Positions 18,687-39,710 of a stretch of DNA of 41,609 nt are shown in pieces. Every line of letters starts with the position of its first letter. The first letter of the stretch is position 1. Source of the DNA: Gammaproteobacteria bacterium (GTDB lineage Bacteria > Pseudomonadota > Gammaproteobacteria > Pseudomonadales > Azotimanducaceae); assembly GCA_018665025.1 (NCBI GenBank), contig JABJED010000028.1:1-41609 (forward strand). Direction: 5' to 3'. A program made the position numbers and the translations under genes. Under the pieces are notes generated by a model that searched no databases, was not told the origin of the DNA, and was given only the letters and a program-made list of their open reading frames with translations.

Positions 18687-18702
18687 TTTATCATCTGATA
18701 AA
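18687..18702. promoter_or_regulatory. Palindrome TTTATCATCTGATAAA, copy 1 of a TetR-type operator
   Basis: Perfect 7-bp arms around a 2-nt centre lie 48 bp upstream of the TetR gene. The same palindrome recurs at 37057-37072 and 39695-39710. Its position in front of the regulator fits autorepression. Confidence 0.7.
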
Positions 18703-18750
18703 CTAATTGCTATTAGTGACTTTCTTGTTGCGCGCTATGGACCGGAATAA

Positions 18751-19395
18751 ATGACCGTTAAGAAAACAGACATCAAAGTGCCGAAAAAACGCTTGCGTCC
18801 AGAAAATCGAGAACAGCAGATTCTGGAAGAAGCCGTGAGCTTTTTTGCTGAAAAAGGGATTTCCGGGAAAACCCGAGAATTGGCTGCCCGTCTGGGTATT
18901 ACCCAGCCCCTGCTTTATCGCTATTTTCCAACAAAAAGAGACTTGATAGAAGGTGTCTTCGAAAAAGTCTACCTGCACAATCTCAACCCTGAATGGCTGA
19001 AAACCATCACTGATCGTGACAGGACCCTGCAGGATCGCCTATGCGAGTTCTATCGCTCCTATTCAGCAGCGACTTATCGATACGACTGGATCCGCGTTTA
19101 CATGTTTTCCGCGCTGATGGGTGAAGAAATGAACCGCCGATATACTAAACTTATCGAGAAGGAGATACTGACGCCGATCTGTGTCGAGCTCCGCGAGCAC
19201 TGCGGGATGCCCAGCAACAAGCGAGTCAGCCAGGCAGAGCTGGATCATATATGGGTATTGCACGGCGGCTTGTTTTATTTCGCAATTCGCAAGCACATCT
19301 ACCACGGTCGCGTGAGCAAAAATTTCCCGGCGGTTGTAGAACGCGCTGTCAACGCCATGCTCGAAGGGACCAGATCGATCAGTGCCAATCTGTGA
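18751..19395 (+). CDS. TetR-family transcriptional regulator
   Basis: This 214-aa repressor-type regulator has a basic N-terminus followed by the TetR helix-turn-helix (REQQILEEAVSFFAEKGISG, TRELAARLGITQPLLYRYFPTKRDLIEGVF) and a helical ligand-binding domain. It begins the operon TetR / beta-hydroxyacid dehydrogenase / triple Rid / second dehydrogenase / CocE hydrolase, with a gap of only 5 nt to the next ATG. A 16-bp palindrome upstream, repeated at two distant promoters in this window, is the likely DNA target. The ligand is unknown, probably a pathway metabolite. Confidence 0.93.
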   Translation: MTVKKTDIKVPKKRLRPENREQQILEEAVSFFAEKGISGKTRELAARLGITQPLLYRYFPTKRDLIEGVFEKVYLHNLNPEWLKTITDRDRTLQDRLCEFYRSYSAATYRYDWIRVYMFSALMGEEMNRRYTKLIEKEILTPICVELREHCGMPSNKRVSQAELDHIWVLHGGLFYFAIRKHIYHGRVSKNFPAVVERAVNAMLEGTRSISANL

Positions 19396-19400
19396 TTCGT

Positions 19401-20312
19401 ATGAGCGAGCTACAAAACCCAGTAAATAACTCAACACCCATCGGAATAATCGGCCTGGGTATCATGGGTTCGGCCATCGCAAACCAATTGACGACATTGG
19501 GGTGGCAGGTTGCTGGTTTCGATCCCGATCCGATTCAACAGAAGATAGCAGGAGACATGGGTGTCAGCATAAAATCTCACCCCAAAGACGTGGTTTGCAA
19601 TGCAGAGATCATTCTGTCGAGCCTGCCCAACCAACAGGCACTTAATGACTCTATTGATGCCATTATCGATACGAAGAACAATAACCTAAAAGTTCTCGCT
19701 GATCTCAGCACGCTAGAACTGGAATGTAAGTTATCTAGCCGTAAACGGTTACTAGGCGCAGGGGTTTCTTTTCTAGACTGTCCGATTAGTGGTACCGGCG
19801 CACAGGCAAAGACCGGTGATCTTTCTGTCTATGCCAGTGGTTGCGAAGAAGCTTACGGATATTGTCTTCCGCTATTTCGAGACTTCACCTCCGGCGTCCG
19901 CTACCTGGGTGAATGCGGTAATGGTACGAAAATGAAATTCGTCGCAAACCTCCTCGTCGCCATACACAACGTAGCCAGCGCAGAAGCCATGCTGCTCGGT
20001 GAACGTTGCGGCCTTGACCCCCAGGACGTTTGCGAGACCATCGCAATGGGCGCTGGTTCATCAAAGATTTTCGAACTACGAGCACCACTCATGGCAAGCC
20101 GGAAGTTTGAACCGCCGACGATGCGTCTTGATCTGTGGCAAAAAGACATGGCATTGATTTCGGAATTCGTGGCGAGATCTGGCGCAGTGGCGCCACTCTT
20201 TACCGCAACCTCGCCGCTTTATGATGCAGCCATCAAAAACCAATTGGGTGCACAGGATACCGCTGCCATCTACTCTGTTCTTGCCCAGTTAATAGAGCAG
20301 GGTTCAGATTAG
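19401..20312 (+). CDS. NAD(P)-dependent beta-hydroxyacid dehydrogenase (3-hydroxyisobutyrate dehydrogenase-like), copy 1
   Basis: The track ORF begins inside the TetR gene; ATG at 19401, 5 nt after the TetR stop, opens the protein (303 aa). It has the Rossmann motif IGIIGLGIMGSAIA, the substrate-binding motif DCPISGTGAQAKTGDLSV, and GNGTKMKFVANLL with the catalytic Lys. The family oxidises 3-hydroxy acids such as 3-hydroxyisobutyrate or tartronate semialdehyde partners, and includes imine reductases. Given the neighbouring Rid protein, an imine-reducing role is a real alternative. A second paralogue lies two genes downstream. Confidence 0.9.
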   Translation: MSELQNPVNNSTPIGIIGLGIMGSAIANQLTTLGWQVAGFDPDPIQQKIAGDMGVSIKSHPKDVVCNAEIILSSLPNQQALNDSIDAIIDTKNNNLKVLADLSTLELECKLSSRKRLLGAGVSFLDCPISGTGAQAKTGDLSVYASGCEEAYGYCLPLFRDFTSGVRYLGECGNGTKMKFVANLLVAIHNVASAEAMLLGERCGLDPQDVCETIAMGAGSSKIFELRAPLMASRKFEPPTMRLDLWQKDMALISEFVARSGAVAPLFTATSPLYDAAIKNQLGAQDTAAIYSVLAQLIEQGSD

Positions 20313-20357
20313 TTTTTTGAACAACAACGTCATATTGACAACAAAAGAATAACTACG

Positions 20358-21725
20358 ATGAATCAAAAAAATAAGAACAGCACTGCACCGGAAGCGATCT
20401 GGCCAGGACTTGAAGCCGGCGTTCCCAAGCCCCTAATGCCTTACAGTCCTGCAATAAAAGCCGGTGGCTGGGTTTTTATCTCAGGACAACTAGCCAGTGA
20501 CTTTAAAACAGGCCTCGACGCCTCTGTCGCCTCGGTGAACCCTTTTCTTAACGAACAACTGGCAGGTGAGTCTGATTTCGTTTTGGGGAACCTGCGGGAT
20601 ACCATCGCGGCCACTGGGTGCGACATCAACAAGGATATGGTTCGAATCTGGCAGTGGTTTGTTTCCGATAGACCGACGCACCAGGAGTTCGAGCAGGGTA
20701 ACAACTGGCCTGCGTTGTCCATCGCGCCGTATCTCGATGTCAGAAAGAACTTCATAGACTCTTGTCCACCTTCTTCGAGTCTCGGTGTTCGCGAACTGAT
20801 GTGGCGTAACACTAACCTTGAAGTGGACATGATCTGCTTTGCTGACGACGATGAGTCGATCACCTTCGGCGAGCCTACCGCGCTTGGGCAACACCACCCG
20901 GCTTTGCGTCGTGGCGACTGGGTTTTTCTTGCCAGCGAAGGTCCTGTTGACTGGGTAAATGGACATTTAACCGGGTCTCAGGTCGATGGACCAACCGCCC
21001 TGGCAAAACACACGTGGTCACACCCAGATCATTGGTATACATCAACAGTCGAAGAACAAACCCGCTATACCCTGGAGAAACTTGCAAGACTTGCAGAAAC
21101 GGCAGGTACCTCACTGGATCAAACCGTCAAGGCGGATGTCTATATCGGTCATCCTCGAGATTTCGCCGCGATGGATCGCGTTTGGCGACAAACATTTCCA
21201 GAGAACCCACCTGCCAGGGTCGTCATTCCCTATATGGGTATGGGCGCAAAAGGCGCTAGAGTTGAAATATCACTAACGCTGCTCGCCGGTGATGCCAGCA
21301 TTTCCAAGAAAACAATTGAAACTTCCGACGCCCCGGAGCAACCAGGACATGAACCTCAAGCTGTAAAAGCCGGCAACTTTCTGTTTTTCAGCACCCAAAT
21401 GGCATTTGATTCAACGGGAAATCTCGCTGAAGGGATGCGCCGACCTGAGAACGCTCCCTGGTATGGATCCCCCGGCCAGAATCAGATGCGTTATATAATG
21501 AAAAACGTCGACGCGATTTCGTCTGCCGCGGGTACTTCTGTCGAAAACATTGTTCGTCGAGCCTGCTTTCACAGCGATCTTCAATGGTTTGCAGACTCGA
21601 TTCAAAGCTGGGCAAGCTACTTCCCAGGCGACAAACCAGCTTCAACAACGATTGGCCTGGACGGGCCCTTTGTTGTATCAGGCGCTAACACGCTTCTCGA
21701 TCTGATCAGCTATGTTCCTGACTAA
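20358..21725 (+). CDS. Triple RidA/YjgF-like domain fusion protein
   Basis: At 455 aa this is about three times the usual 125-130 aa of RidA. I see three Rid-like units: residues about 25-160 (AIKAGGWVFISGQLA), 185-310 (ALRRGDWVFLASEG; QTVKADVYIGHPRDF) and 335-455 (AVKAGNFLFFSTQMA; NIVRRACFHSDLQWF). Rid proteins hydrolyse reactive enamines/imines or act as ligand-binding trimers; a covalent triple could mimic the trimer in one chain. The deaminase Arg of RidA is not clearly conserved in any unit, so catalysis may differ. It lies between two beta-hydroxyacid/imine-type dehydrogenases in the TetR operon. Confidence 0.85.
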   Translation: MNQKNKNSTAPEAIWPGLEAGVPKPLMPYSPAIKAGGWVFISGQLASDFKTGLDASVASVNPFLNEQLAGESDFVLGNLRDTIAATGCDINKDMVRIWQWFVSDRPTHQEFEQGNNWPALSIAPYLDVRKNFIDSCPPSSSLGVRELMWRNTNLEVDMICFADDDESITFGEPTALGQHHPALRRGDWVFLASEGPVDWVNGHLTGSQVDGPTALAKHTWSHPDHWYTSTVEEQTRYTLEKLARLAETAGTSLDQTVKADVYIGHPRDFAAMDRVWRQTFPENPPARVVIPYMGMGAKGARVEISLTLLAGDASISKKTIETSDAPEQPGHEPQAVKAGNFLFFSTQMAFDSTGNLAEGMRRPENAPWYGSPGQNQMRYIMKNVDAISSAAGTSVENIVRRACFHSDLQWFADSIQSWASYFPGDKPASTTIGLDGPFVVSGANTLLDLISYVPD

Positions 21726-21746
21726 TCGTTAACCAGGGAGCTCATC

Positions 21747-22643
21747 GTGGAATCAGTCGGCTTTCTTGGGTTAGGCAAAATGGGAACTGCCATGGCAACC
21801 AGGCTTCTGGGGGCTGGTTGTTCGCTCACCGTTTGGAACCGGTCTTCTGATAAAACTGAAATTCTCGTCCAAAATGGGGCCAATCTTGCTGCGTCACCCG
21901 CAGAACTGGCAAATTCAGTCGACATCGTTATTACCATGCTCAGCAACGATGCCGTAACCGAGGCAATCTACCAAGGCAACGATGGGCTTTTGAGTGGCGA
22001 TATCAAAGACAAGCTCTTTATCGACATGAGCACCTTACGCCCTTCTACTGTTTCCTTGTTAGCCGATAACGCACAAAACAAAGGCGCTAGTTTTATTGAC
22101 GCACCAGTTTCCGGAACGGTAACACCAGCAGAGAAAGGTCAGTTGCTGGTTTTATGCGGCGCCAAAGCAGGTGACCTAATTCGCGCCAGGCCTGTTCTGG
22201 ATATTCTTAGTAGACGCATTATTCATGCTGGTCCGGTCGGCCAGGGCGCTTTACTCAAGCTGGTCGTGAACCTACCTCTGGCCGTCTATTGGGGGTCACT
22301 TGCCGAAGCGCTTACCATGGGCGCCAGAGGCGGTCTTAACCTCGAGTTAATGCTCAATACAATACAAGACTCTTCAGCAGCGCTGGCCGTCTTACCACTG
22401 AAAACGCCACAAATACTGGGTCAATCAGCATCAGTTGCATTCGATGTTGCAGGTATGCAAAAAGACCTGAACTCCATGCTGAACTCCGGCCAGGACCACG
22501 GCATACCCATGCCGATTACAACTGGCACATTAACATCCTACGATGCCGCCGCAGCTGGCGGCCTTGGCGCAGAAGATGCTGTCGAAATCATCAGCTTTCT
22601 AATGGAACACGCTGGATCTCAACAGAACGATAAAGAGGACTAA
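21747..22643 (+). CDS. NAD(P)-dependent beta-hydroxyacid dehydrogenase (3-hydroxyisobutyrate dehydrogenase-like), copy 2
   Basis: This 298-aa paralogue of the dehydrogenase two genes upstream starts at GTG with AGGGAG 6 nt ahead. The Rossmann motif VGFLGLGKMGTAMATRL, substrate motif DAPVSGTVTPAEKGQL and catalytic-Lys segment GQGALLKLVVNLP are all present. The two copies are divergent enough that they probably act on different substrates or steps. The family also includes imine reductases, which would suit the Rid neighbour. It is followed after 2 nt by the CocE-type hydrolase. Confidence 0.9.
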   Translation: MESVGFLGLGKMGTAMATRLLGAGCSLTVWNRSSDKTEILVQNGANLAASPAELANSVDIVITMLSNDAVTEAIYQGNDGLLSGDIKDKLFIDMSTLRPSTVSLLADNAQNKGASFIDAPVSGTVTPAEKGQLLVLCGAKAGDLIRARPVLDILSRRIIHAGPVGQGALLKLVVNLPLAVYWGSLAEALTMGARGGLNLELMLNTIQDSSAALAVLPLKTPQILGQSASVAFDVAGMQKDLNSMLNSGQDHGIPMPITTGTLTSYDAAAAGGLGAEDAVEIISFLMEHAGSQQNDKED

Positions 22644-22645
22644 TA

Positions 22646-24385
22646 ATGACAAATACTGAAATCAGAGACGGCATGCGGATTGACTGGGACTGTGGTATCC
22701 GGATGGACGACGATTTGGTCCTTCGGGCAGATATATTCCGGCCATTGGCAGAGGGCAACTATCCGGTCATCCTTACCCACGGACCCTATGGAAAGGGTCT
22801 CGCCTTTCAGGAGGGTTATCCAAGTGCTTGGAATCGTATGGTCGCCGAACATCCGGATGTGGCTGCAGGATCAAGTAATCTTTATCAAAACTGGGAAGTC
22901 GCTGACCCAGAAAAATGGGTTCCTGATGGTTATGTTTGTGTTCGAGTGGACTCTCGTGGTTGCGGTGCCTCTCCCGGCTACGTTGATCACTTTTCGGCCC
23001 GCGAAACTCAGGACTTCGCTCAATGCATTGAATGGGCTGGCGTTCAGCACTGGAGCAACGGTAAAGTTGGCCTAAATGGCGTTTCCTACTACGGCATCAA
23101 TGCGTGGCAGGTCGCCTCACTACAACCTAAACACCTCGCTGCAATTTGCGTCTGGGAAGGCTCTGCAGACTGGTACCGCGACATGACTCATCATGGTGGA
23201 ATCCTCAGCACCTTCTGGGCCAATTGGTACGACATGCAGGTGAAATCAGTCCAGTATGGTCTCGGCAGCCGCGGTCCCATCAGCGTCGTTACAGGAAAGC
23301 CGGTTTGTGGTGACGAAACATTGTCCGAAGATGCGCTTGTGGAAAACAGATGTGATTTCGGTAACGATATTTACGCGCACTCACTCGATGACGAATACCA
23401 TCGGACTAGATCTGCTCTCTGGTCAAAACTGACAACCCCAATATTGACCGCTGCGAACTGGGGTGGCCAGGGTTTACATCCTCGCGGAAATTTCGAAGGT
23501 TTCACCCGTGCCGCAACATCCGACAAATGGCTTGAGGCTCATGGACTCGAACATTGGACAGAGTTTTACACAGACTATGGCGTGGCTCTGCAAAAACGCT
23601 TTTTCGATTACTTCCTGAAAGGCGAAGATAATGGGTGGCAAAACCATCCACGCGTTCAATTGCAAATAAGAAAGATAGATGGCTTCGAAAAACGCTATGA
23701 AGACGCTTGGCCAATCCCGAGAACTCAATGGATGCCTTTCTACATCCATGAAGACCTAACACTATCCACCGACAAACCAACCAGTGACTCAACGGTCAAT
23801 TTTAACGCTATGAAAGATGGCCTGACCTTTTTGTCGGCACCCCTTTCATCCGAAATGGAGATCACCGGACCCTCCGCATTCAAGACAATCGTGTCTTCCT
23901 CTACGGCTGATGCGGATATATTTGTCATACTGCAAGTCTTCGCCCCGGATGGCGAAGAGGTCGTATTTCAAGGCGCAATCGACCCTAATACACCTATCGG
24001 TCAAGGCTGGCTGAGGGCTTCTCACCGGAAGCTTGATACCGCACTATCGGAGGACTGGAGACCCTATCATAGCCATGATGAACAGCAGCCATTAACACCG
24101 AATGAAGCAGTTGATCTGGATATTGAAATATGGCCGACGTCGATCGTGGTGCCGATCGGCTACCGAATTGGTCTGACTGTTCAGGGTCAGGATTATGAAA
24201 ACCCCAATGCCACCGGTGAGCGACTATCCAATTTCAAAAATGAATTGAAAGGATGCGGTCCCTTTTTGCACAACGATCCACGAGATCGACCTATCGAAAT
24301 ATTTGGTGGAACGACAACGTTACATATCTCCACGAGCAAACCAAGCCATATCCTACTGCCCGTAATACCTCGATCAGCAAAGTAA
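22646..24385 (+). CDS. CocE/NonD family hydrolase (X-Pro dipeptidyl-peptidase S15 type)
   Basis: This 579-aa serine hydrolase has an alpha/beta fold: the N-terminal strand and PVILTHGPYGKG, VRVDSRGCGASPG, nucleophile elbow GLNGVSYYGINAWQ (Ser in GVSYYG), and a C-terminal jelly-roll domain (from about residue 390; STADADIFVILQVFAPDGEE, PIGYRIGLTVQGQDYENPN). Relatives include cocaine esterase and alpha-amino-acid ester hydrolases. It cleaves an ester or amide in the cytoplasm, as there is no signal peptide. It is the last gene of the TetR operon (GAGG before the ATG) and converges on the next gene with a 2-bp gap and no terminator. Confidence 0.92.
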   Translation: MTNTEIRDGMRIDWDCGIRMDDDLVLRADIFRPLAEGNYPVILTHGPYGKGLAFQEGYPSAWNRMVAEHPDVAAGSSNLYQNWEVADPEKWVPDGYVCVRVDSRGCGASPGYVDHFSARETQDFAQCIEWAGVQHWSNGKVGLNGVSYYGINAWQVASLQPKHLAAICVWEGSADWYRDMTHHGGILSTFWANWYDMQVKSVQYGLGSRGPISVVTGKPVCGDETLSEDALVENRCDFGNDIYAHSLDDEYHRTRSALWSKLTTPILTAANWGGQGLHPRGNFEGFTRAATSDKWLEAHGLEHWTEFYTDYGVALQKRFFDYFLKGEDNGWQNHPRVQLQIRKIDGFEKRYEDAWPIPRTQWMPFYIHEDLTLSTDKPTSDSTVNFNAMKDGLTFLSAPLSSEMEITGPSAFKTIVSSSTADADIFVILQVFAPDGEEVVFQGAIDPNTPIGQGWLRASHRKLDTALSEDWRPYHSHDEQQPLTPNEAVDLDIEIWPTSIVVPIGYRIGLTVQGQDYENPNATGERLSNFKNELKGCGPFLHNDPRDRPIEIFGGTTTLHISTSKPSHILLPVIPRSAK

Positions 24386-24387
24386 CT

Positions 24388-25824
24388 TCAGACCCAGTTG
24401 AAGCGGCTACGAATGCGTGAAAACCGACGCGTATTGACTTCGTCGAATAGCGTATCTTGCAGTTCATCCAGATTCTTTACTGCCTCATAACGATCAATCG
24501 ATACATGTTCACCGTTTTCAACAAGGGTACGCCCACGAACCATGACTCGGTGAATTGATTCTGGACTTGGCCCGTTGCCATAAACCAGGTTAGGCAGGAT
24601 TGCCGAGGGTGGAGAAAGGTGGGTCTCGCCACGTCGATCGATCATCAAGACATCTGCGTCCTTCCCAGATTCCAGCGACCCTATTCGGTCATCCATCATC
24701 AAAGCCTTGGCACCACCTATCGTAGCAAGTTCTAAGGCCTGCTCCGCACTGCCATAAAGTACTTCCTCACCCGTCCACTTAGAGGTTTCATCACTGACCC
24801 GACGGCGATATTCGTCACCCAATCGTTGCCCTGTCAGAAAACTACGCATACCAGTCCACAAGTCATGTCCGTAGGCCACGACCGGTCCATCAAGGCCGAG
24901 GCCACAAGTTACGCCGCGGTCAAGAAATTGGCGGGCATCGAAACTCACCAGACCAAGAACTTGTTCCATATCAGGAACGAGCGCGATAGTCGCACCCCGA
25001 TTAGCAATCAACTCCGCCTCGCCGGGCCTGAGGTTTTGTGCATGCCCCGCTATAACGTTAGGCCCGAGGATACCTGCGTCGTCCAGCCATTCGAAGGAAC
25101 CGCCTTCCCAGCCACGTCTCTTAGCTAAGTATTTTTGATCAAAGACCGCTGGCGCATGAATATCAAACTGCCTGTTGTTGAGGTCGGTCCACTCCCACAA
25201 TTCCTTCAATTGATCCGGCTCGCAATAAGTAATGCCAATGGTTGAGGCCGTGACTGAAATGAGATCGTCTTCCCATTGGGCTTTGACGCGCTCTGTCTCA
25301 GCCAGGCCAACATCCAGATCCTCCCGGAACCCTTCAGGCACTGCATCCTTGTCGTTAATGGTCAAACGGGCCATTCGGCATCGTATGCCCGCATCTTTGA
25401 CAGCCGCGAGAACACCATCGATGGATCGTTTATGTACATGTGTAAAGTGATCATCCGTGGTTGTCGTTACACCCCGTCGTACCAGATCAAGAATCGGCGG
25501 CATGGCGGAAACGTAAGAGCGCTCTTCATCACAGGCGCCTGTCATTGGGTAGTAAAAGCCAAAGAAACGTTCTTCAAAGGTGGTACCTTCGGCCATTCCT
25601 CGCATGCATCCCTGTACCAGGTGCGCGTGAGCATTGACCAAACCTGGCATGACAATGAAACCATCACCACCGGTTTCTTCTTCGCCGATAAACTCGCAAC
25701 TGTCGTTGGTGCCGGCACCAACGACCAAACCATCCTTTATCGCCAGATAGCCATCCGTATAGACATCTCTGTCCGGATTCATCGTGATCACCATGCCACG
25801 TAATAACAGATCACACTTTTTCAT
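24388..25824 (-). CDS. Amidohydrolase, deaminase/chlorohydrolase type (TrzN/AtzA/cytosine-deaminase-like)
   Basis: This 478-aa metal-dependent hydrolase of the amidohydrolase_1 group has the metal motif NAHAHLVQG (His66 and His68), FDIHAPAVF, GHAQNLRPGE and GLGLDGPV (metal Asp). The C-terminal small domain carries RIGSLESGKDADVLMIDRRG. The family removes amino or chloro groups from N-heterocycles (s-triazines, guanine, methylthioadenosine). GGAGG precedes the ATG. It lies 52 nt behind the HMGL-like gene, probably the last gene of the minus-strand cluster. Deamination of a ring amino/imino group before ring opening is plausible. Confidence 0.9.
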   Translation of the reverse strand: MKKCDLLLRGMVITMNPDRDVYTDGYLAIKDGLVVGAGTNDSCEFIGEEETGGDGFIVMPGLVNAHAHLVQGCMRGMAEGTTFEERFFGFYYPMTGACDEERSYVSAMPPILDLVRRGVTTTTDDHFTHVHKRSIDGVLAAVKDAGIRCRMARLTINDKDAVPEGFREDLDVGLAETERVKAQWEDDLISVTASTIGITYCEPDQLKELWEWTDLNNRQFDIHAPAVFDQKYLAKRRGWEGGSFEWLDDAGILGPNVIAGHAQNLRPGEAELIANRGATIALVPDMEQVLGLVSFDARQFLDRGVTCGLGLDGPVVAYGHDLWTGMRSFLTGQRLGDEYRRRVSDETSKWTGEEVLYGSAEQALELATIGGAKALMMDDRIGSLESGKDADVLMIDRRGETHLSPPSAILPNLVYGNGPSPESIHRVMVRGRTLVENGEHVSIDRYEAVKNLDELQDTLFDEVNTRRFSRIRSRFNWV

Positions 25825-25876: not shown

Positions 25877-26788
25877 CTAACCAGTAGCGACGTCAGGAAA
25901 AATCCCTGCCTTCGGTAACATTGCCGGTAATTCCCGACCAAGCTCCTGTTCGAGCCACTGGCTGGTTTCAACAATTTTCTGCAGAGACAGTCCGGTTTCC
26001 ACACCAGAGCGGTCCAGCATATAAATCAGATCATCTGTCGGTATGTTGCCCGTGGCTTTGGGTGCAAACGGGCACCCGCCAATACCTGCAATACTAGAAT
26101 CGATGTAATCAACGCCTGCATCAACAGCAGCATAGGCATTGGCAAGTCCAACATTGCGCGTGTTATGGAGGTGCATACGGAGCGGCACTTCACCAAAATG
26201 ATTTCTAAGTTCACCGACAAGATCGGTTAACTGGTTCGGAACTGCGACACCGATACTGTCGGCAATACCCAGCTCAGCGGGTTCAGCTTCCATGAGCCTC
26301 TTGGCAATTTCAACAACCCGCGCTACCGATACCTCTCCTTCGTAGGGGCAACCAAAAGCAGCAGAGATCATGACATTCGCTACTTTACCATTGGCTTTGG
26401 CTCGCGCTGCAATTTTTAACCAAGCCTTAACTGAATCGTTAGTCGGAACACCCTGGTTACGCTGATTGTAAGTATCAGTTGCAACCACGACCATGCCAAT
26501 TTCATGGACGCGGGTTTCAAGAGCCCTGTCGAGGCCTCGCTCATTCATCAGTAGACCAATATATGAAACTCCTTCAATTATTGGCAGCGCCGCCAATAAT
26601 TCCTCAGAATCTGCCATCTGCGGTACTTTTTTGGGATTGACAAAACTTGCGACTTCCAGCCGGGTGATGCCCGCATCAACTGCGCGCGCAATAAACTCCA
26701 ACTTACTTGCCGTCGACAGCACCTCCGGCTCACTTTGCAAGCCATCACGTGGACTGACTTCAACGATAGATACTTTCTTCTGACTCAT
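25877..26788 (-). CDS. Hydroxymethylglutaryl-CoA lyase-like enzyme
   Basis: This 303-aa TIM-barrel lyase of the HMGL/DRE-TIM group has VEVSPRDGLQSEP (metal and catalytic DRE-type motif), MRMHLHNTRN-type metal histidines (RMHLHNT) and the active-site loop IAGIGGCPFAPKATGN with the essential Cys. The family splits HMG-CoA to acetyl-CoA and acetoacetate, and relatives split other 3-hydroxy-3-methyl acyl-CoAs. ATG 26788 has GGAG 9 nt upstream, inside the end of the isochorismatase gene. Next to a CoA-transferase in this cluster, it probably ends the carbon-skeleton branch. True HMG-CoA from leucine is the alternative. Confidence 0.93.
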   Translation of the reverse strand: MSQKKVSIVEVSPRDGLQSEPEVLSTASKLEFIARAVDAGITRLEVASFVNPKKVPQMADSEELLAALPIIEGVSYIGLLMNERGLDRALETRVHEIGMVVVATDTYNQRNQGVPTNDSVKAWLKIAARAKANGKVANVMISAAFGCPYEGEVSVARVVEIAKRLMEAEPAELGIADSIGVAVPNQLTDLVGELRNHFGEVPLRMHLHNTRNVGLANAYAAVDAGVDYIDSSIAGIGGCPFAPKATGNIPTDDLIYMLDRSGVETGLSLQKIVETSQWLEQELGRELPAMLPKAGIFPDVATG

Positions 26789-28190: not shown

Positions 28191-28203
28191 GCAACCTCGG
28201 CGA

Positions 28204-28220
28204 TTGTCTTCTCCAGACAA
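28204..28220. promoter_or_regulatory. Candidate GntR operator TTGTCT-N5-AGACAA
   Basis: A perfect 6-bp inverted repeat lies between the HyuB stop and the GntR start, 14 nt before the regulator's ATG. Location and symmetry fit autoregulation of the GntR/amidase/lyase part of the operon. Confidence 0.45.
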
Positions 28221-32168: not shown

Positions 32169-33392
32169 TTAGATAATCGATTTTTTTCGTAGCGCAGCAA
32201 GATCATCTGCATTAAGCCCAAGCAAACTGCTATAAACGCTTTCATTGTGTTCGCCAACAACCTGAGGACCTACCCAACGAACTTCACCTTGTGTTTTTGA
32301 CATCTTTGGAAATACATTCTGCATTTTCAGGTCTGGCCATTGTTCGGTAGGTGTATCAATAATCGACTCACGCGCTTTGAAATGCGGATCTTTTAGCATT
32401 TCAGGAGCCCTGTAGATCCCGCCTGCGGGTACAGCATTTTCTTCCATCACCTGGTCGACTTCCTCGACTGTTTTAGTCAGCGTCCAGTCATTAATAAGAC
32501 CATCGAGCTCCTCAGCATTCTGCCCTCTTGCCGTATGAGTCGCGAATCGCTCATCTTGCGCTAGCTCCGGTTGCTCAATGACTGCGCACAAACGAGCAAA
32601 AACAGTATCCTGGTTAGCCGCAATGAGAAACTCCCCATCTTTGCACGTATAAATGTTTGATGGCGCTACGTTGGGAAGGGTCGCACCCGATCTCTTTCTG
32701 ATGTAATTGCTGACAGTATATTCGGGTATGGTTGCTTCCATGACGTTAAGCACCGATTCGAAAATCGAAGCATCAATCACCTGACCCTCTCCGGTCTTTT
32801 CTCGATGATGCAACGCAGCCAGTGCGCCCGTGCAAGCAAATGTGGCGGCTATGGAATCTCCCATTGACAACCCTGTCCTACTCGGTCGTCTGTCTGGCTC
32901 TCCGCAGAGGTAGCGCATTCCACCCAATGCTTCGCCTATCGAGGCATATCCCGCACGGCCAGAATGAGGCCCTGTTTGACCATATCCTGATACCCTAACC
33001 ATGATCAAGCCTGGGTTTTCTTTAGACAGTTCCTCGTAACCAAGCCCCCAACGTTCCATGGTCCCTGGTCTGAAGTTTTCCAACACCATATCAGCCTGTG
33101 AAATCAGCTTTCTGGCCAACTCCTGGCCCTCAGGTTCACGAAGATTGGCGGTCACACAGCGTTTGTTACGCGCACAGACCGTCCACCAGAGGGGATAGTC
33201 GCCACGCCCCCAGACTCTCATTGGGTCGCCAACTTCCGGCGGCTCTATCTTGATGACATCAGCGCCCATATCGGCCAACAATTGTCCGCAAAAAGGGCCC
33301 GCAATTAGCTGGCCAAGCTCAATAACACGCAGGTCAGTCAAAGGACCCTTTGCTTGTTTTTGGCTATCGTTGTCGACTTGAGATTCAGTCAT
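32169..33392 (-). CDS. CaiB/BaiF family (class III) CoA-transferase
   Basis: This 407-aa single-unit CoA-transferase has LRVIELGQLIAGPFCGQLLADMGADVIKIEPPEVGDPMR at the N-terminus, ENFRPGTMERWGLGYEEL, and GLSMGDSIAA with the catalytic Asp in the expected place. It moves CoA from a donor thioester to the pathway acid. GGAAG precedes the ATG at 7 nt. It opens the HyuA/HyuB transcript, and a symmetrical AT-rich region directly upstream (33411-33449) could be its promoter and operator. Length is normal, unlike the double-length paralogue at 14048. Confidence 0.93.
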   Translation of the reverse strand: MTESQVDNDSQKQAKGPLTDLRVIELGQLIAGPFCGQLLADMGADVIKIEPPEVGDPMRVWGRGDYPLWWTVCARNKRCVTANLREPEGQELARKLISQADMVLENFRPGTMERWGLGYEELSKENPGLIMVRVSGYGQTGPHSGRAGYASIGEALGGMRYLCGEPDRRPSRTGLSMGDSIAATFACTGALAALHHREKTGEGQVIDASIFESVLNVMEATIPEYTVSNYIRKRSGATLPNVAPSNIYTCKDGEFLIAANQDTVFARLCAVIEQPELAQDERFATHTARGQNAEELDGLINDWTLTKTVEEVDQVMEENAVPAGGIYRAPEMLKDPHFKARESIIDTPTEQWPDLKMQNVFPKMSKTQGEVRWVGPQVVGEHNESVYSSLLGLNADDLAALRKKSII

Positions 33393-33410: not shown

Positions 33411-33449
33411 TTTGGTATATTTGTTATATAAACATATCATTATATCAAA
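33411..33449. promoter_or_regulatory. AT-rich interrupted inverted repeat before the CoA-transferase/HyuAB transcript
   Basis: TTTGGTATA (33411-33419) and TATATCAAA (33441-33449) match in 8 of 9 pairs, and TGTTATATAAACA (33422-33434) adds inner symmetry. They lie 18-57 bp before the CoA-transferase ATG. A promoter with an operator is likely; which regulator binds is unknown. Confidence 0.4.
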
Positions 33450-33475
33450 TGCAATTGCCAAATAGCCCCTGTGCG

Positions 33476-34756
33476 TTAACGCCAATTGACCGTGCCGATA
33501 ACACCATCGACAGATACGTCCGCACCATCCGGGATTCTCATCGTAGCCTCAAGCACCCCCAGCACCATCGGAATACGTCGCTCTCTCGCGAGCGAAGCCA
33601 AATGCGAGGTGCTGCCTCCCAACTCTGCCACAACCCCCGAAACACGAGGCAATATCTGACTGAGTGAAGGACTCGCGACACGTGTCACAAGCACGTCACC
33701 ATAAGCAACGCGTGAAAGCTCACATTCGCAATTAATCACGCAGGCCTTGCCGCTAGCCCAGCCAACGCCAGAAGGCTGTCCACGGACTCCTGCTTTTCGA
33801 GACCCGGGGTCCGGTGTGCTTGACCGCTGATCTTCCATTTGCAATGGGCGCGCCTGCAACAACCACTGGCGCTTTCCGTTGCCAGTCCACTCAATTTCGA
33901 CCGCAAAACCCATGTGCTCTTCTGCGCGCCTGAGCAATTGTCCGAGCTCACTAACCTGGACTTTGCTCAGACAAGGCTGCAACGCGTTATCCTGTTCAAC
34001 GCGAGAACTACTTCCTGAGTGGTGGGCACAATTTTGTCCGTGCACCGTACGCCCGACGACTGTTTCAATCACAGTACCATCCGCGCCCAGGACATAACGA
34101 TCGGGTACAACTTCACCCTGGGCAATGGCAGTGCCCAGCCCCCAAGAAGCACTCAGTGACATGCTGCCATCGGCCATTCGGCTCATGCCACCGCCAGAGG
34201 TCAATCCACCTACTAGCTCCTGGATGCAGAGACCCATGGCCATATCCAGGGTATCGAGGTTTCGGCTCTCCATGTAGCGTAATGCTCGTGGCGACCATAG
34301 CGCCGCCCAACAGGCTCGAACTGCAGTTAGAAACTCCGCTTCATTATTAAGTCCCAGGAAAGTCTCGTACTGACCGGCAAAGGTGCTGTCTGCCAGATCT
34401 TCTGATAGCGAAGAAGAACGAACCACCGTCTTCGAACCAGAGGCTTCACATAACTCACGCCAGGCAATAAGTAATGGTTTCTCTATGTCCGAAGCAATAG
34501 GACTATCAAACAATCCAAGCCTCAATTTGGACACGGCGTGACGCTGTTCTTCGCCAGACAATCCATCAACTTGACCTGCCAGCTCTAGCAGTCCTATGGA
34601 TTCAAGTTGTCTTCGGTAGGCGGCTGCATCCAAACTGAACCCTTTAGGGATCGGCAAACCAGCATGCCCCAGCATCGCCTGGTTGGCAGCCTTGGCACCA
34701 AACCGATTGGCGTCAATCGCACCAGCGTCCTTGAGATTGGCAATATAGTCAGTCAT
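33476..34756 (-). CDS. Compact PEP-synthase-like protein: ATP-binding plus swivelling His domains only
   Basis: This protein of about 426 aa has an N-terminal PPDK/PEP-synthase ATP-grasp domain (FGAKAANQAMLGHAGLPIPKGF, VVRSSSLSEDLADSTFAGQYE, SWGLGTAIAQGEVVPD, WLLQARPLQ) and a C-terminal phospho-His domain with GGSTSHLASLARERRIPMV, where His is the phosphocarrier. The C-terminal PEP/pyruvate barrel of full PEP synthases, and the large middle domain of rifampin phosphotransferase, are missing. This organisation resembles ATP-using subunits such as one component of phenylphosphate synthase, which needs a separate substrate-binding partner. The start is ATG 34756 with GGAGG. It follows the M24 gene by 16 nt. 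Confidence 0.88.
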   Translation of the reverse strand: MTDYIANLKDAGAIDANRFGAKAANQAMLGHAGLPIPKGFSLDAAAYRRQLESIGLLELAGQVDGLSGEEQRHAVSKLRLGLFDSPIASDIEKPLLIAWRELCEASGSKTVVRSSSLSEDLADSTFAGQYETFLGLNNEAEFLTAVRACWAALWSPRALRYMESRNLDTLDMAMGLCIQELVGGLTSGGGMSRMADGSMSLSASWGLGTAIAQGEVVPDRYVLGADGTVIETVVGRTVHGQNCAHHSGSSSRVEQDNALQPCLSKVQVSELGQLLRRAEEHMGFAVEIEWTGNGKRQWLLQARPLQMEDQRSSTPDPGSRKAGVRGQPSGVGWASGKACVINCECELSRVAYGDVLVTRVASPSLSQILPRVSGVVAELGGSTSHLASLARERRIPMVLGVLEATMRIPDGADVSVDGVIGTVNWR

Positions 34757-34772
34757 CACTCAAGCCTCCTTC

Positions 34773-36023
34773 TTACGAATGTCGCATCGGGTCAACAACG
34801 GTTATTTCCTTAACCGGGAAGTTGGAAATGATTTCGGTACTGTCTTCATGAACAATCAGCATCTCTTCAATCCGAACTCCAAACTCAAGTGGTTTGCCAT
34901 GCTGAGTTTCCAGTGCAAAAACCATCCCTGGTTTGATTTCGATGGGATGATCAAGCGACCAGATGCGAGAAATCACAGGCATGTCGTATTGAGCCAACCC
35001 AAGACCGTGACCCCACAGGTTCGCTGCGGCCTGATCTTCTTCTTCATAGCCCCACACTTCTTTGGCCGACGGCCACTTTTCGGCAATATCCTTTGTTGTG
35101 CAACCCGCCTTAACCGCATCGATAGAATCGTAAAGCCACTCTAGCGCCTGCGCATAGTAATCTTTCATTTCCTGAGTCGGTTCACCTCCGACACAATAAG
35201 TCCTGTAGTAGCAGGATTTATATCCGTTCCAGGTTAATGCAGCCAGATCCATGAACGTAATGTCTCCAGGCAAAATAATGCGATCAGAAAAGTTGCGCCA
35301 GTTGGGCCACGTATTGGGGCCAGAAGAAACGATGACATCTTCAACATCCTCCATGCCTGGCCAAGAATAAAGGTATTCCATGATATGTGCGGTTACCTGA
35401 TTTTCAGTGACTCCAGGCTCCAGGAACTTCATGGTCTGCCAGTGAGCCGCATCACCGATAGCGCCAACAATTCGCATGCATTCCTGCTCGTCCTGGTTCT
35501 TGATGGCTCTTGCTTCCATCATCGCAGTCATACCATCTACCCAGGTGATTCCAGCGGCTTCGAAAGCACCCATCATGTTGATGTCGACAAAATCCACACC
35601 GAGCTTCTCTCCGGCGACGTTAAAACGCTTCATCTCTTCAAGGATTGCTTTGGTGAATTTCTTCACTTGTTCTTGAGCTGCGGGGCCTGCTGCACCCTTT
35701 ATCCAGGCGTAAGAGTAACGGATGTTTTCTGCTGGCAACCATGGGCAGTGACGGTTAATTTGAACACCGATGTCACCCTGCTCAAACAATACTGGCGCGG
35801 CGTCACCACAAAGCAGCGCATAACGAAGCCCGGGTTTTAACCGACACCAGCCTGGTGTAATTGTAGATGTGATATAGCGAACATTTTCATCGTACATGCA
35901 TAGCATTGCACCAAGTCCGTGCGCTTTCATTCGAGCCCGGGCACTTTCCAGTCGATAGGTACGCAGACGCTCCCAATTCACTCGCTCCTGCCAATCCACA
36001 CCTGCAATTCCAAAATTTGCCAA
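34773..36023 (-). CDS. M24-family (creatinase/aminopeptidase P fold) protein with an altered metal site
   Basis: This 416-aa pita-bread-fold protein has an N-terminal creatinase domain (residues about 20-160) and an M24 catalytic domain. Metal-ligand positions read Asp259 (FMDLAALTW), then Cys271 where the second Asp is expected (NGYKSCYYRTYCVGG), His339 (GHGLGLAQY), Glu372 (ALET) and Glu386/387. A substituted ligand means a normal dimetal peptidase is doubtful. Family members with non-peptidase jobs include creatinase (creatine to sarcosine and urea) and the DMSP lyase DddP. It begins the minus-strand hydantoinase-type cluster, 16 nt ahead of the PEP-synthase-like gene. Confidence 0.88.
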   Translation of the reverse strand: MANFGIAGVDWQERVNWERLRTYRLESARARMKAHGLGAMLCMYDENVRYITSTITPGWCRLKPGLRYALLCGDAAPVLFEQGDIGVQINRHCPWLPAENIRYSYAWIKGAAGPAAQEQVKKFTKAILEEMKRFNVAGEKLGVDFVDINMMGAFEAAGITWVDGMTAMMEARAIKNQDEQECMRIVGAIGDAAHWQTMKFLEPGVTENQVTAHIMEYLYSWPGMEDVEDVIVSSGPNTWPNWRNFSDRIILPGDITFMDLAALTWNGYKSCYYRTYCVGGEPTQEMKDYYAQALEWLYDSIDAVKAGCTTKDIAEKWPSAKEVWGYEEEDQAAANLWGHGLGLAQYDMPVISRIWSLDHPIEIKPGMVFALETQHGKPLEFGVRIEEMLIVHEDSTEIISNFPVKEITVVDPMRHS

Positions 36024-36056
36024 TTTAATCTCTCCAACAATAATTAATATAGGGTT

Positions 36057-37001
36057 TCATTCGATGGTTCTGGCTACCCGAACGCCAAAGTTGTAGTAAC
36101 GCGTGCTCTTGCTGTCATCACCGGTGAAATCGAATCCATATCGATTCGCCGAACGCAAATATTTAGGATGATCGTGCCAGGAAGCGCCACGAAGTATCGG
36201 TATGCTGCAATTACCCTGCCGCCAGGCTGAACCGTCCCTCGGCGCACCGACATAATTCTCACTCCAGCAATCTTCGACCCACTCGGCGACATTACCGAGA
36301 ACGTCATGGACCCCAAAAGCATTGGCACGTAGCGAACCAACTTCTGCCGTAAAAGAATATCCATCATGGCAATTCGCCACTGTCCAACCAGGAATATCCG
36401 TCTCACCTGTTAAGTCCGCACCGTTGGCAAACTCACAGCCATCATCTGCAGACAAACCCCAAAATCTCTCACTAATGGTCCCTGCTCGTGCCGCGTATTC
36501 CCACTCAGCCTCACTGGGCAATCGATAATCCTGCTCCGTCACATCGCTCAGCCACTTCACGTAAGCATTCGCATCCTGCCAACTTATACAGACTGCCGGG
36601 TGACGGTCATTTTGCGAATAACCCGGATCACGCCAGCCGAGAGAAGGATCAAGTTCGGGCTCTCTTTTCGTTCGGAAGAAACAGCCGCCAGTGGTGTCTC
36701 TTCTCGTCACACTAACGAATCGAGCATATTCGCCGCGGGTCAATTCGAATTTTCCAATTGCGTATCGCTTCGCTATGTCGACTCGATGGCGCGGCACTTC
36801 GTCTTTATGTTTTTGTTCGTCGTTCTTCGCTGCGCCCATCATGAAACTGCCTGCAGGAATGATGACCAGTACCGGGCAGTAATCACAATCCTGAATTTTC
36901 CCCAGATTTTCATAACCTGCAGACAATTGGCCCTGAGCCATCAGCAACGGAGACCCGACCCAACAAGACAATCCCAGCAGGATCACTAGCCACTTGTTCA
37001 A
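36057..37001 (-). CDS. Exported SUMF1/FGE-fold protein lacking the FGE cysteines
   Basis: The core shows the formylglycine-generating-enzyme fold: IPAGSFMMG, HRVDIAKRYAIGKFELTRGEYARF, HPAVCISWQDANAYVKWLS, YRLPSEAEWEYAARAGT, GVHDVLGNVAEWVEDCW and the end ILRGASWHDHPKYLRSANR. In true FGE this last segment carries two copper-binding cysteines; here those positions are Asp and Leu, so sulfatase activation is unlikely. Relatives such as PvdO/NirV take other roles. A signal peptide (NKWLVILLGLSCWVGSPLLMAQG) suggests periplasmic location. The start is uncertain: the track TTG lies inside the palindrome at 37057, so I use TTG 37001. It is not clearly linked to its neighbours. Confidence 0.82.
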   Translation of the reverse strand: MNKWLVILLGLSCWVGSPLLMAQGQLSAGYENLGKIQDCDYCPVLVIIPAGSFMMGAAKNDEQKHKDEVPRHRVDIAKRYAIGKFELTRGEYARFVSVTRRDTTGGCFFRTKREPELDPSLGWRDPGYSQNDRHPAVCISWQDANAYVKWLSDVTEQDYRLPSEAEWEYAARAGTISERFWGLSADDGCEFANGADLTGETDIPGWTVANCHDGYSFTAEVGSLRANAFGVHDVLGNVAEWVEDCWSENYVGAPRDGSAWRQGNCSIPILRGASWHDHPKYLRSANRYGFDFTGDDSKSTRYYNFGVRVARTIE

Positions 37002-37056
37002 GACGGGAACACTCGCATAAAAGGTCTCTTTGATCGCACGCTTTTGAGTACCATTA

Positions 37057-37072
37057 TTTATCAATTGATAAC
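37057..37072. promoter_or_regulatory. Palindrome TTTATCAATTGATAAC, copy 2 of a TetR-type operator
   Basis: It is nearly identical to the palindromes at 18687 and 39695 (one end base differs) and lies in the gap between the flavoprotein stop and the SUMF1-fold gene. It fits an operator for the SUMF1-fold gene's promoter. Confidence 0.65.
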
Positions 37073-37115
37073 TTAAAAGTCAAACAAATGAGCTGGATAG
37101 TGTCAAAATCTATCG

Positions 37116-38612
37116 TTACGCCTGTGGCCTAGGTCTGATGTTGCTGTTGATTCGAAACAAATTGGCAGGGTCATACTTAGACTTCACGTCCACCAATCGA
37201 TCAAGGTTAGTCAAATAGTTAGTTTGAACCTGCACGGGGTCTACGCCATATGCATCATTAGTATAGAAACCGTCGGTAAACCCTTTAACCTTATTCCAGT
37301 AGCTGTCGGCCCAGGCAGCGTGTGGCTCTGGATCCAGGCCGGAAGGCCATACTGCTCCTATCGTAAGGTTGTGACTAATTTCCCGGTGTGGAAACGCTGT
37401 TGCCGATGTCGCGATTTCCCTGATCGCGCCACCGGCTTGCTGAAAGAACGCCATACTCCCCCTGAGCATGTTTGACTCAAGGTTTTCAATCAAGGTATCT
37501 ACCAGCGCCTTACTAATCGTTTTGACGAAGCCGCTCTTTAAATGCTGCCCTGTACCTCTTGGGTCTGAGTCATCGCTACTTTTCTGCAATGCTACGTAAT
37601 CGACAGGCCTTATTTCGTCCTTGAGGGGCTTAACGAAGCGTCTCAGTGGCTCTAGCACCCGTGCTGCATCCTTCGGATGCCCCGAGTAACAAACATCTAA
37701 ATAAAGGGCACTTTTTAGGCCAAACGGTGGCGCAAATATCACCAGGTCAACGTACAAATCATCTGGCATATCCTGACAATACTCCGCATAAAAGCTGATC
37801 ACCTCTTTGGCTTTTTCATACGGATAATAAATCTCACCACCAATGACTTGCCGATCCATCGGATGTAACTGAAAATCAAAAGACGTGACAACACCAAAAT
37901 TGCCCCCACCGCCTCGGAGTGCCCAATAAAGGTCCGGATTTTCATCCACGCTGGCCCGCCTCAATTCGCCATCTGAGGTGACTATGTCGGCCGCCAATAA
38001 ATTGTCAGAGGTAAGACCGAAACGTCGTGCCAGGCGGCCAAAGCCGCCACCCAGGGTTAAGCCACCGACACCAGTATGCGACACAGTTCCTGCAGTAGTT
38101 ACCAAACCATGGGCCTGACTTTTTTCATCCAACTCTGCCAAGAGCGACCCACCTAGCACACTGGCCATACGTCTTTCTGGATCAACCGCCACACCCTGCA
38201 TAAGGGAAAGGTCGATTAACAACCCGCCCTCACAGGTTCCATTGCCCGCAATGTTATGACCACCGCATTTCACAGCTGTCAACAACTGGTAATGGTTTGC
38301 AAAATTAACAACCTCGATGACATCTACGGCACTGGCACACTGTGCAACCAAAGCCGGATACTTATCGATTGTCCTATTACGGACTTGTCGCGCTATCTCG
38401 TAACCCTCACTTCCAGAAAAGAGCAAATAGCCTTTGATGCTTTTTGCTAGCGCCGCGAGAGCGAAGGCATCCAGTAACACCTCACCACCCAAAATCGATA
38501 CAGCGTTAATACTGGCCAAGCTCGATTGATTTCCACTGTAGTATCGCCATATCGGATATGGGGCTACTGCCGCAGCGCCCATCCCCGCGTATAATAATGT
38601 TCGTCGCTTCAT
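37116..38612 (-). CDS. FAD-linked oxidoreductase, berberine-bridge-enzyme type, with twin-Arg leader
   Basis: This 498-aa flavoprotein has an FAD_binding_4 domain (residues about 85-260) with VKCGGHNIAGNG, where His119 is the residue that usually bonds covalently to FAD, and GGGFGRLARRFGLTSDN, where the Cys found in bicovalent relatives is Thr. The C-terminal BBE segment ends YDPANLFRINSNIRP. Such enzymes oxidise alcohols, sugars or benzylisoquinoline-like and cyclic amine substrates with O2. MKRRTLLYAGMGAAA looks like a Tat leader, suggesting export as a folded protein. It follows the alcohol dehydrogenase by 14 nt, so the two are one operon. Confidence 0.88.
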   Translation of the reverse strand: MKRRTLLYAGMGAAAVAPYPIWRYYSGNQSSLASINAVSILGGEVLLDAFALAALAKSIKGYLLFSGSEGYEIARQVRNRTIDKYPALVAQCASAVDVIEVVNFANHYQLLTAVKCGGHNIAGNGTCEGGLLIDLSLMQGVAVDPERRMASVLGGSLLAELDEKSQAHGLVTTAGTVSHTGVGGLTLGGGFGRLARRFGLTSDNLLAADIVTSDGELRRASVDENPDLYWALRGGGGNFGVVTSFDFQLHPMDRQVIGGEIYYPYEKAKEVISFYAEYCQDMPDDLYVDLVIFAPPFGLKSALYLDVCYSGHPKDAARVLEPLRRFVKPLKDEIRPVDYVALQKSSDDSDPRGTGQHLKSGFVKTISKALVDTLIENLESNMLRGSMAFFQQAGGAIREIATSATAFPHREISHNLTIGAVWPSGLDPEPHAAWADSYWNKVKGFTDGFYTNDAYGVDPVQVQTNYLTNLDRLVDVKSKYDPANLFRINSNIRPRPQA

Positions 38613-38626
38613 ATCAACGGCCTAAA

Positions 38627-39652
38627 TCAGGTGTGATCCAAAATCACTTTCATCCTCGCGTCGTCACGCTCATCGAGCATTCGAATAGCCTGTTCAAGCT
38701 GCGAAAGCGGTAAGACATGACTGATCATTGAATCCAGATCGACGGTACCATCTAAGACGAAATCTATGCAGGCAGGATAGTCACTGGCCTTGGCGGCACG
38801 TGCATTGGTTACCGCCAGCTCCTTGAAATAGAGTTGGTAGAACGGCAAGCGGCCAATTTCATCAGTATAAATCCCGAAAAGAAGTAGCCGTCCCCCAGGC
38901 CTTGCAAGCTCGATCGCCTGCTTGAGCGTTGCCATAGAACCAGCGCAATCAATGACAACGTCGGCCCCTCGACCGCCGGTCAGCTTACGAATTTCATTAT
39001 CAACGTCCTCGCTCGGTGCAAAGGTCTGATCGGCTCCAAGTTGTTCAGCCAGAGAACGTCGCATCGCACTGCCAGTGATACCAATCACCTGGGCTGCTCC
39101 ACTTGCCTTGGCTAGCTGGACATGCAACTGCCCACTGACGCCCAGACCAATCACGACGACTGTTTCTCCCGCCTGCATACCAGCAAGTTGCTGTGCATGG
39201 TGGCAGGTCGTCATCACCTGAATGAGCGGTGCACAGTCATTGCTGATCTGCTCGGGCAATTGAAAAACCGCATCCACCGGAGCACTGACAAGCGCCGAGA
39301 AACCGCCATCACGATCTCGGCCTAATAGGCCACCATTGGGACAAAGGTTTTCCTGTCCTACTCGACAATAGAAACACTGACCGCAGCTCAGCACTGGGTT
39401 TACGATGACACGATCCCCAACGCAATATCCTGCTCCATCATCATCAGCGGCGACCGATTCTACGATCCCAATCATCTCGTGGCCCATAATCCTAGGATAA
39501 GTAACCGGAATATCACCACGATAAATCTTTAGATCAGTACCACAGACGCCAGAGTGCGTAACACGCACCAACACTTCCTCTGCTGAGGCTGTGGCATCAT
39601 CAACGATCGTCTCGACCAGGTCAGAAGGTGCTCGTAAAACCATGGCTTTCAT
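38627..39652 (-). CDS. Zinc-dependent alcohol dehydrogenase (MDR family)
   Basis: This 341-aa medium-chain dehydrogenase has catalytic zinc ligands in GVCGTDLKIYRGD (Cys37) and MGHEMIG (His58/Glu59). The four structural-zinc cysteines are in SCGQCFYCRVGQENLC (90, 93, 96, 104), and a Rossmann domain carries VVIGLGVSGQLHVQLAKASGA. It oxidises a secondary alcohol or polyol with NAD(P). AGGAGA precedes the ATG. It leads the two-gene operon with the flavoprotein, and a copy of the TetR-type palindrome lies 43 bp upstream. Sorbitol/threonine dehydrogenase-like activity is possible; the substrate is unknown. Confidence 0.93.
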   Translation of the reverse strand: MKAMVLRAPSDLVETIVDDATASAEEVLVRVTHSGVCGTDLKIYRGDIPVTYPRIMGHEMIGIVESVAADDDGAGYCVGDRVIVNPVLSCGQCFYCRVGQENLCPNGGLLGRDRDGGFSALVSAPVDAVFQLPEQISNDCAPLIQVMTTCHHAQQLAGMQAGETVVVIGLGVSGQLHVQLAKASGAAQVIGITGSAMRRSLAEQLGADQTFAPSEDVDNEIRKLTGGRGADVVIDCAGSMATLKQAIELARPGGRLLLFGIYTDEIGRLPFYQLYFKELAVTNARAAKASDYPACIDFVLDGTVDLDSMISHVLPLSQLEQAIRMLDERDDARMKVILDHT

Positions 39653-39694
39653 AGGATTTGGGATCTCCTGCTCTTTTACGAGAGAATGTTTTAG

Positions 39695-39710
39695 TTTATC
39701 ATTTGATAAA
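39695..39710. promoter_or_regulatory. Palindrome TTTATCATTTGATAAA, copy 3 of a TetR-type operator
   Basis: This perfect 7-bp-arm palindrome sits in the divergent gap between the alcohol dehydrogenase (start 39652) and the membrane-protein gene (start about 39760). One site here could control both directions. It matches the palindromes at 18687 and 37057. Confidence 0.7.

Follow-up and report, generated by a model that had tools for sequence, protein, structure and literature searches.

The window analysed here is the whole 41,609-nucleotide contig JABJED010000028.1 of a gammaproteobacterial assembly (GCA_018665025.1, Azotimanducaceae), which forms part of a source genome (G000) of 4.79 Mb in 544 contigs. 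It carries three copies of a palindrome which a sequence-only reading had placed at 18687-18702, 37057-37072 and 39695-39710, coordinates that are exact, and had taken as the mark of a probable TetR regulon. We hold with high confidence that this palindrome, in a 22-bp form (TWRTTTATCANNTGATAAAYWA), represents the operator of an autoregulated TetR repressor encoded at 18751-19395 which would govern six operon boundaries. The regulon that best explains the data is predicted to comprise about 19 window genes, given below together with the three sites, and at least eight more elsewhere in G000.

18684..18705, no strand: operator 1, TTATTTATCATCTGATAAACTA; tetR start codon 45 bp downstream
18751..19395, +: TetR-family regulator, 214 aa (PF00440, E=5e-12); no other close copy in the genome
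19392..20312, +: NAD-dependent 3-hydroxyisobutyrate-dehydrogenase-like enzyme A (PF03446 and PF14833); start inferred, GTG 19392 or ATG 19401
20358..21725, +: triple-Rid fusion protein of imine/enamine deaminase type (PF01042, Ribonuc_L-PSP, in three stretches)
21747..22643, +: 3-hydroxyisobutyrate-dehydrogenase-like enzyme B (PF03446 and PF14833)
22646..24385, +: CocE/NonD hydrolase (TIGR00976, above cut-off)
24388..25824, -: TRZ/ATZ-type amidohydrolase, end of the operator-2 operon (PF01979; NCBIfam deaminase matches, all below cut-off)
25877..26788, -: HMG-CoA-lyase-like enzyme (PF00682; orthologue above the NF004283 cut-off)
26792..27424, -: isochorismatase-family amidohydrolase (PF00857; sole NCBIfam match of the orthologue is biuret hydrolase, below cut-off)
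27417..28220, -: GntR/UTRA regulator (PF00392 and PF07702)
28230..30083, -: hydantoinase B / caprolactamase-beta-like subunit, HydB (PF02538; top NCBIfam match of the orthologue NF050157, below cut-off)
30096..32156, -: hydantoinase A / caprolactamase-alpha-like subunit, HydA (PF01968; top NCBIfam match of the orthologue NF050156, 532 bits against a cut-off of 1000)
32169..33392, -: family III CoA-transferase (PF02515)
33476..34759, -: protein with PPDK_N and PEP-utiliser domains (PF01326 and PF00391)
34773..36023, -: M24/creatinase-type enzyme (PF00557)
36057..37001, -: secreted protein of FGE/SUMF1 fold (FGE-sulfatase, PF03781), head of the operator-2 operon; start inferred
37054..37075, no strand: operator 2, reading TAAGTTATCAATTGATAAATAA toward the FGE-M24 operon
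37116..38612, -: BBE-type FAD-linked oxidase (PF01565 and PF08031)
38627..39652, -: zinc alcohol dehydrogenase, adjoining operator 3 on the left (PF08240 and PF00107)
39692..39713, no strand: operator 3, TAGTTTATCATTTGATAAATAA; flanked by divergent operons
39784..40431, +: membrane protein, adjoining operator 3 on the right (no Pfam family; start inferred)
40474..41609, +: UbiD-family decarboxylase (PF01977), truncated by the contig end

The gene contexts named in the sequence-only reading (TetR, dehydrogenases, triple Rid, CocE, SUMF1 fold, alcohol dehydrogenase, flavoprotein and UbiD) were confirmed by Pfam and NCBIfam, the dehydrogenases as 6-PGDH/HIBADH-like ones. All three sites are intergenic as it had stated, site 2 on condition of a revised gene start: the mechanical start of the FGE open reading frame (TTG 37064) falls within operator 2, and is better placed at TTG 37001, where a signal-peptide-like N-terminus would open, so that the operator comes to lie between genes.

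That the window holds no further copy is true at up to two mismatches, and the sole additional match, at 7698, has three. In G000 the 16-mer occurs in five exact and four one-mismatch copies against none of a reversed control, with about 0.02 exact copies expected by chance in 4.79 Mb at 50% GC (simple arithmetic), while at two mismatches the signal is drowned (19 against 9 in the control). In 55 distinct copies with at most one mismatch in the 16-mer, selected without use of the flanks, the three bases on each side are constrained as well (T 79%, A/T 95%, A/G 94%), and the predicted operator is for this reason 22 bp rather than 16 bp long; the palindrome first proposed is thus a real core, though short of the full site. 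Searched at up to three mismatches, the 22-mer has exactly six matches in G000, none of them with more than 1 mismatch, and the reversed control has none. Three of these sites are in the window and one each on contigs C96, C278 and C381, so that the linkage of three loci stands for the window and the genome total is six; all six sit between catabolic operons. What the genome scan shows is therefore a few copies lying between genes, not a scatter through coding DNA.

The flanks also separate regulon sites from other copies. They match at 6/6 positions at the six catabolic promoters of G000, at all sites checked in the relative G425 and at the three 16-mer sites of the relative G004, and at 2/6 in the G000 near-copies on C367, C107 and C311. 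These three were rejected as regulon members and are regarded as chance copies because the operator flanks are missing: C367 has an exact 16-mer inside an AbiEii-type toxin gene (abiEii, L012:4307-4322), counted as chance despite the low expectation for exact copies, the C107 copy is near a histidine kinase start, and that on C311 is at the stop codon of a FAD protein, ahead of a luciferase-like gene. A single copy in G005 was likewise rejected as an operator, since it lies in a coding frame, matches the flanks at 0/6 and belongs to a genome with no close TetR.

Conservation in place was found in two relatives. In G425, a metagenome-assembled genome (MAG) labelled Gammaproteobacteria, contig C148 (JABIZD010000017.1) carries seven operators within about 50 kb, in these contexts:

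LeuCD, HMG-CoA-lyase-like enzyme and NCS1 permease; operator; CoA-transferase
allantoinase-like amidohydrolase, MFS, LeuC and LeuD; operator; DUF2390 gene
FAD pair; operator; 343-aa cupin-type protein
operator; BBE oxidase, MBL and molybdenum hydroxylase
UbiD and membrane protein; operator; alcohol dehydrogenase and BBE oxidase
operator; FGE, M24, PPDK, CoA-transferase, HydA, HydB, GntR, isochorismatase, HMG-CoA-lyase-like enzyme and amidohydrolase
CocE, dehydrogenase, triple Rid, dehydrogenase and TetR; operator

Six of the seven correspond in orthologous position to the full set of six G000 sites, and the seventh stands ahead of the BBE oxidase-MBL-molybdenum hydroxylase operon. Orthologues of every operator-bearing G000 contig are held by C148 in one array, with protein identities mostly of 65-93%. 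In ungapped comparison of the six site pairs the core is identical at 15-16/16 positions, and blocks 21-40 bp away at mostly 2-9/20. The G000 orthologue of the molybdenum hydroxylase (82%, contig C58) begins 1.7 kb from the contig start, with any operator of its own beyond view. All three window sites are also retained in G004 (C204/C312, C568 and C328). Counterparts of operator 1 are found there ahead of each of two TetR copies, on C204 and C312, and a 23-bp block around this operator is identical in seven TetR promoters, the remaining spacer having diverged. Operator 2 is identical on the HydA-bearing contig C568, conserved in G425, and has a counterpart ahead of an M24 gene in locus L061. 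Operator 3 is conserved on C328, between the alcohol dehydrogenase and the UbiD pair, and on C148 of G425; orthologues of its neighbouring membrane protein (83-96% identical) adjoin the same operator. The promoters of orthologous operons in G425 and G004 thus keep the motif.

Some further features of these two genomes may be mentioned. The TetR copies on C204 and C312 of G004 (L057 and L101) share 94% and 89% identity with the window TetR, each with an exact operator; their presence in one MAG might reflect either a recent duplication or mixed strains. G425 has an eighth operator, TTATTTATCAATTGATTAATTA, off the main cluster and ahead of a TonB-dependent receptor gene (C168, L156, 5190-5211). 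Among the genes of its C148 array (L153-L155) are two pairs of LeuCD-like hydratases, as well as a molybdenum hydroxylase accompanied by a ureidoglycolate-lyase-like gene, and this catabolic array of about 50 kb possibly encodes an undescribed pathway.

The motif follows the TetR across proteobacteria, as expected if the one reads the other. In a set of 58 genomes of relatives the exact 16-mer occurs in three (G000, G004 and G005) and is absent from 55, and among the three a close TetR is encoded only by G000 and G004; apart from the G005 chance copy, the motif is thus absent from relatives without the TetR. G001, G019 and G044 have HydA homologues at 59-67% and neither a close TetR nor the operator. 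Scanning the collection yielded 80 loci with TetR homologues, of which 71 upstream regions (400 bp; alpha-, beta- and gammaproteobacteria) were scored: the operator core was exact in 11, at one mismatch or less in 19 and at two or less in 26, compared with 0, 0 and on average 0.1 for 104 scrambled half-sites. Spacings other than 2 bp and the swapped orientation of the arms were each found in none of these regions. A motif-agnostic search for perfect 7-N2-7 palindromes returned TTTATCA-N2 as the top half-site, at 11 loci, the remaining listed half-sites with 2-bp spacing being single cases. When the operator was extended by its downstream flank, a scan of the collection gave no match, because that flank is not conserved. 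The recognition helix of the TetR, TQPLLYRYFPTK, is nearly invariant among homologues down to about 34% identity. In rhizobial and other loci the operator separates the TetR gene from an operon for an ABC transporter or a FAD monooxygenase. It is because of the size of this contrast (19/71 against 0) and of the conservation in place that the TetR is predicted to read the operator. Comparison of this kind is what supports the operator's identity, extent and conservation, its link to TetR and the assignment of member operons.

Palindromes of the same 7-N2-7 form with other arms (GTGATCA, TTGATCA, ATGACCA) were seen upstream of TetR genes of the same family in L086, L094 and L128 (Methylobacterium) and in L098 and L105, and we read them as drift of the operator inside this family. 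In other proteobacterial relatives the operator occurs in tandem, at distances of 42-50, 34-35 or 23 bp (L078, L080 and L082, 46 bp; L081, 42 bp; L099, 50 bp; L110, 34 bp; L159, 23 bp), and binding there may be cooperative. Loci L065 and L066 are alike in TetR match and operator spacing, are assigned to MAGs labelled Rhodobacteraceae and Akkermansiaceae, and resemble Porticoccaceae loci in gene content; at least one of these MAGs is probably mis-binned.

The protein itself carries a TetR_N helix-turn-helix (HTH) domain at residues 24-67 (45.8 bits against a Pfam cut-off of 24), and its AlphaFold model (pLDDT 88) shows ten helices in a TetR fold, i.e., the all-helical HTH plus C-terminal ligand domain of TetR/AcrR proteins, with TetR-family structures as top fold matches; the palindrome near its own gene is a further trait of this family. 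No characterised close homologue was found, the best PDB fold matches being at ~22% identity and every NCBIfam equivalog far below cut-off; nearest by sequence and fold are HapR/OpaR/SmcR/LuxR and PhlH (about 15-23% identity). TetR proteins are usually dimeric on DNA, autoregulating, and released by a metabolite of the pathway. The window TetR resembles the local catabolic repressors among them in its PF00440 HTH, its all-helical ligand domain and the palindrome ahead of its own and pathway operons, but differs from them in that its operator stands at six operon boundaries within a single supercluster, not at one. In enterobacteria, pyrimidine utilisation is controlled by the TetR-family protein RutR, whose 16-bp operator has two 7-bp arms around 2 bp (TTGACCANNTGGTCAA) and whose targets include genes for Rid and isochorismatase-like enzymes. 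The 7-N2-7 geometry is similar, whereas arm sequence and gene content differ; the name RutR appears neither among the 60 best PDB sequence matches nor among the 50 fold matches listed, which involved no direct comparison.

We propose that a TetR dimer would occupy the operator ahead of its own operon and block transcription, and would also sit at the five other G000 operon boundaries, four of them between divergent operons; operator 3 could in this way control both of its neighbours. A pathway metabolite filling the ligand domain would release the dimer and allow expression of a catabolic supercluster of ~50 kb, spread in the fragmented G000 assembly over several contigs, with uptake systems, redox enzymes, C-N ring-opening hydrolases, Rid deaminases and CoA-transfer/lyase steps. 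Operator 2 lies behind TTGACT (G000) or TTGACA (G425), 17 bp from TAAATA, so that a dimer bound there would cover the spacer and the -10 region.

Several points weigh against this model. No operator is present within 400 bp, even at two mismatches, in 45 of the 71 homologue loci; in some of these, though not all, it stands close to a different gene of the locus, or related palindromes (GTGATCA, TTGATCA) occur. The counts are also not independent trials, since the homologue loci are mutually related. Scans for sigma-70 promoters gave nothing above chance or shuffles at any site, and promoter occlusion is suggested by operator position and by one conserved TTGACW-N17-TAAATA arrangement, that of site 2. 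We therefore infer repression rather than activation, as we do physical binding and a pathway-derived inducer. In addition, the cluster encodes GntR, LacI and IclR regulators, which could add their own control to that of the TetR.

The TetR might, alternatively, be an activator or play a dual role, as do its nearest structural relatives. HapR/OpaR/SmcR, its best sequence and fold matches, can both activate and repress, and the tandem operators 42-50 bp apart in some alphaproteobacterial relatives would suit such a role. The LuxR/HapR/SmcR proteins of Vibrio are closest by HTH sequence and fold (TM about 0.67), and the LuxR consensus half-sites have a TGATAA core in common with the present operator. 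However, the match to the HapR equivalog NF040929 is weak (31.8 bits against a cut-off of 350), the LuxR/HapR orientation of the arms, TGATAAA-N-TTTATCA, is opposite to that seen here and occurs in 0/71 loci at spacings of 0-13, and those proteins act in quorum sensing, in contrast to the catabolic gene context of the window. Single operators near start codons, one of them over likely promoter elements, and autoregulated local genes are the usual arrangement of TetR repressors, and we consider activation unlikely. It is less probable still that the palindrome is read by another regulator, a LacI, GntR or IclR neighbour or a global one, with tetR as just one of its targets. Genes for LacI, GntR and IclR are indeed present in the cluster, and several regulators could share it. 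But the palindrome is absent from relatives without the TetR and adjoins TetR homologues in several alpha- and betaproteobacterial loci, including ones of the Rhizobium, Ferrovibrio and Bradyrhizobium type, where no homologue of the window LacI or IclR was called beside it (genes there were called by amino-acid composition, imperfectly in GC-rich loci). Finally, the idea that the window copies arose by chance or as a repeat artefact, to which the near-copies on C367, C107 and C311 lend some colour, is refuted by the zero count of the 22-bp control and by sites kept in place in two relatives amid diverged flanks, and its probability is negligible.

An autoregulated TetR repressor thus stays by far the best account, and the palindrome very probably serves a single regulator of a large catabolic pathway as its binding site. 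That the loci serve a single pathway, as predicted from the window, is strongly suggested by their union in one contiguous G425 cluster. The families under the operator include an NCS1 permease (PF02133), an allantoinase/dihydropyrimidinase-like amidohydrolase, a ureidoglycolate-lyase-like protein, caprolactamase-like HydAB (caprolactamase being its best NCBIfam match, far below cut-off), the triple Rid, a TRZ/ATZ-type amidohydrolase, a xanthine-dehydrogenase-type molybdenum hydroxylase, the UbiD decarboxylase, CoA-transferases, LeuCD-like hydratases and HMG-CoA-lyase-like enzymes. From these families a nitrogen-containing ring compound may be guessed as the substrate, of the class of cyclic amides, ureides or N-heterocycles; no substrate-specific enzyme of the regulon reached an NCBIfam equivalog cut-off. 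Elsewhere, relatives of the TetR adjoin molybdenum hydroxylases, PF22607 FAD monooxygenases, amidohydrolases and aldehyde dehydrogenases. We considered nicotinate breakdown of the anaerobic type (molybdenum hydroxylase, amidohydrolase, 3-hydroxyisobutyrate-dehydrogenase-like and aconitase-like enzymes are present, no mutase was seen), homarine, and caprolactam-like lactams, and found nothing usable on these ideas in the literature. Tentatively, and somewhat short of calling it probable, we suggest an undescribed aerobic pathway of marine gammaproteobacteria for a cyclic amide, ureide or N-heteroaromatic compound. In it a molybdenum hydroxylase, the UbiD decarboxylase, allantoinase-like and caprolactamase-like ring openers, the triple Rid deaminase, LeuCD-like hydratases and HMG-CoA-lyase-like enzymes would act together, and the TetR would found a widespread subfamily of catabolic sensors with one operator from alpha- to gammaproteobacteria.

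As a gene switch the system is of a familiar kind. We regard it as a real TetR regulon, and as far as could be searched a previously undescribed one; the operator was found nowhere in the open-access literature searched, a weak indication, with most subscription papers and regulon databases outside that scope. Catabolic genes without assignment become one testable unit, with one operator and regulator, six boundaries and 19 window genes, and the operator ties together contigs of a fragmented metagenome assembly. The regulon offers a handle for finding the substrate of the pathway. Cultured organisms for study are available as well, since Rhizobium, Agrobacterium and other alphaproteobacteria have this operator next to a TetR homologue, among them Agrobacterium sp. 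CGMCC 11546, Neorhizobium galegae and Rhizobium populisoli.

Outside the predicted operons, the window encodes at 14048-16384 a fused double family III CoA-transferase (778 aa, two stretches) with no operator of its own. It is kept in G425 and G004, adjoining the LacI-MBL-TetR block.

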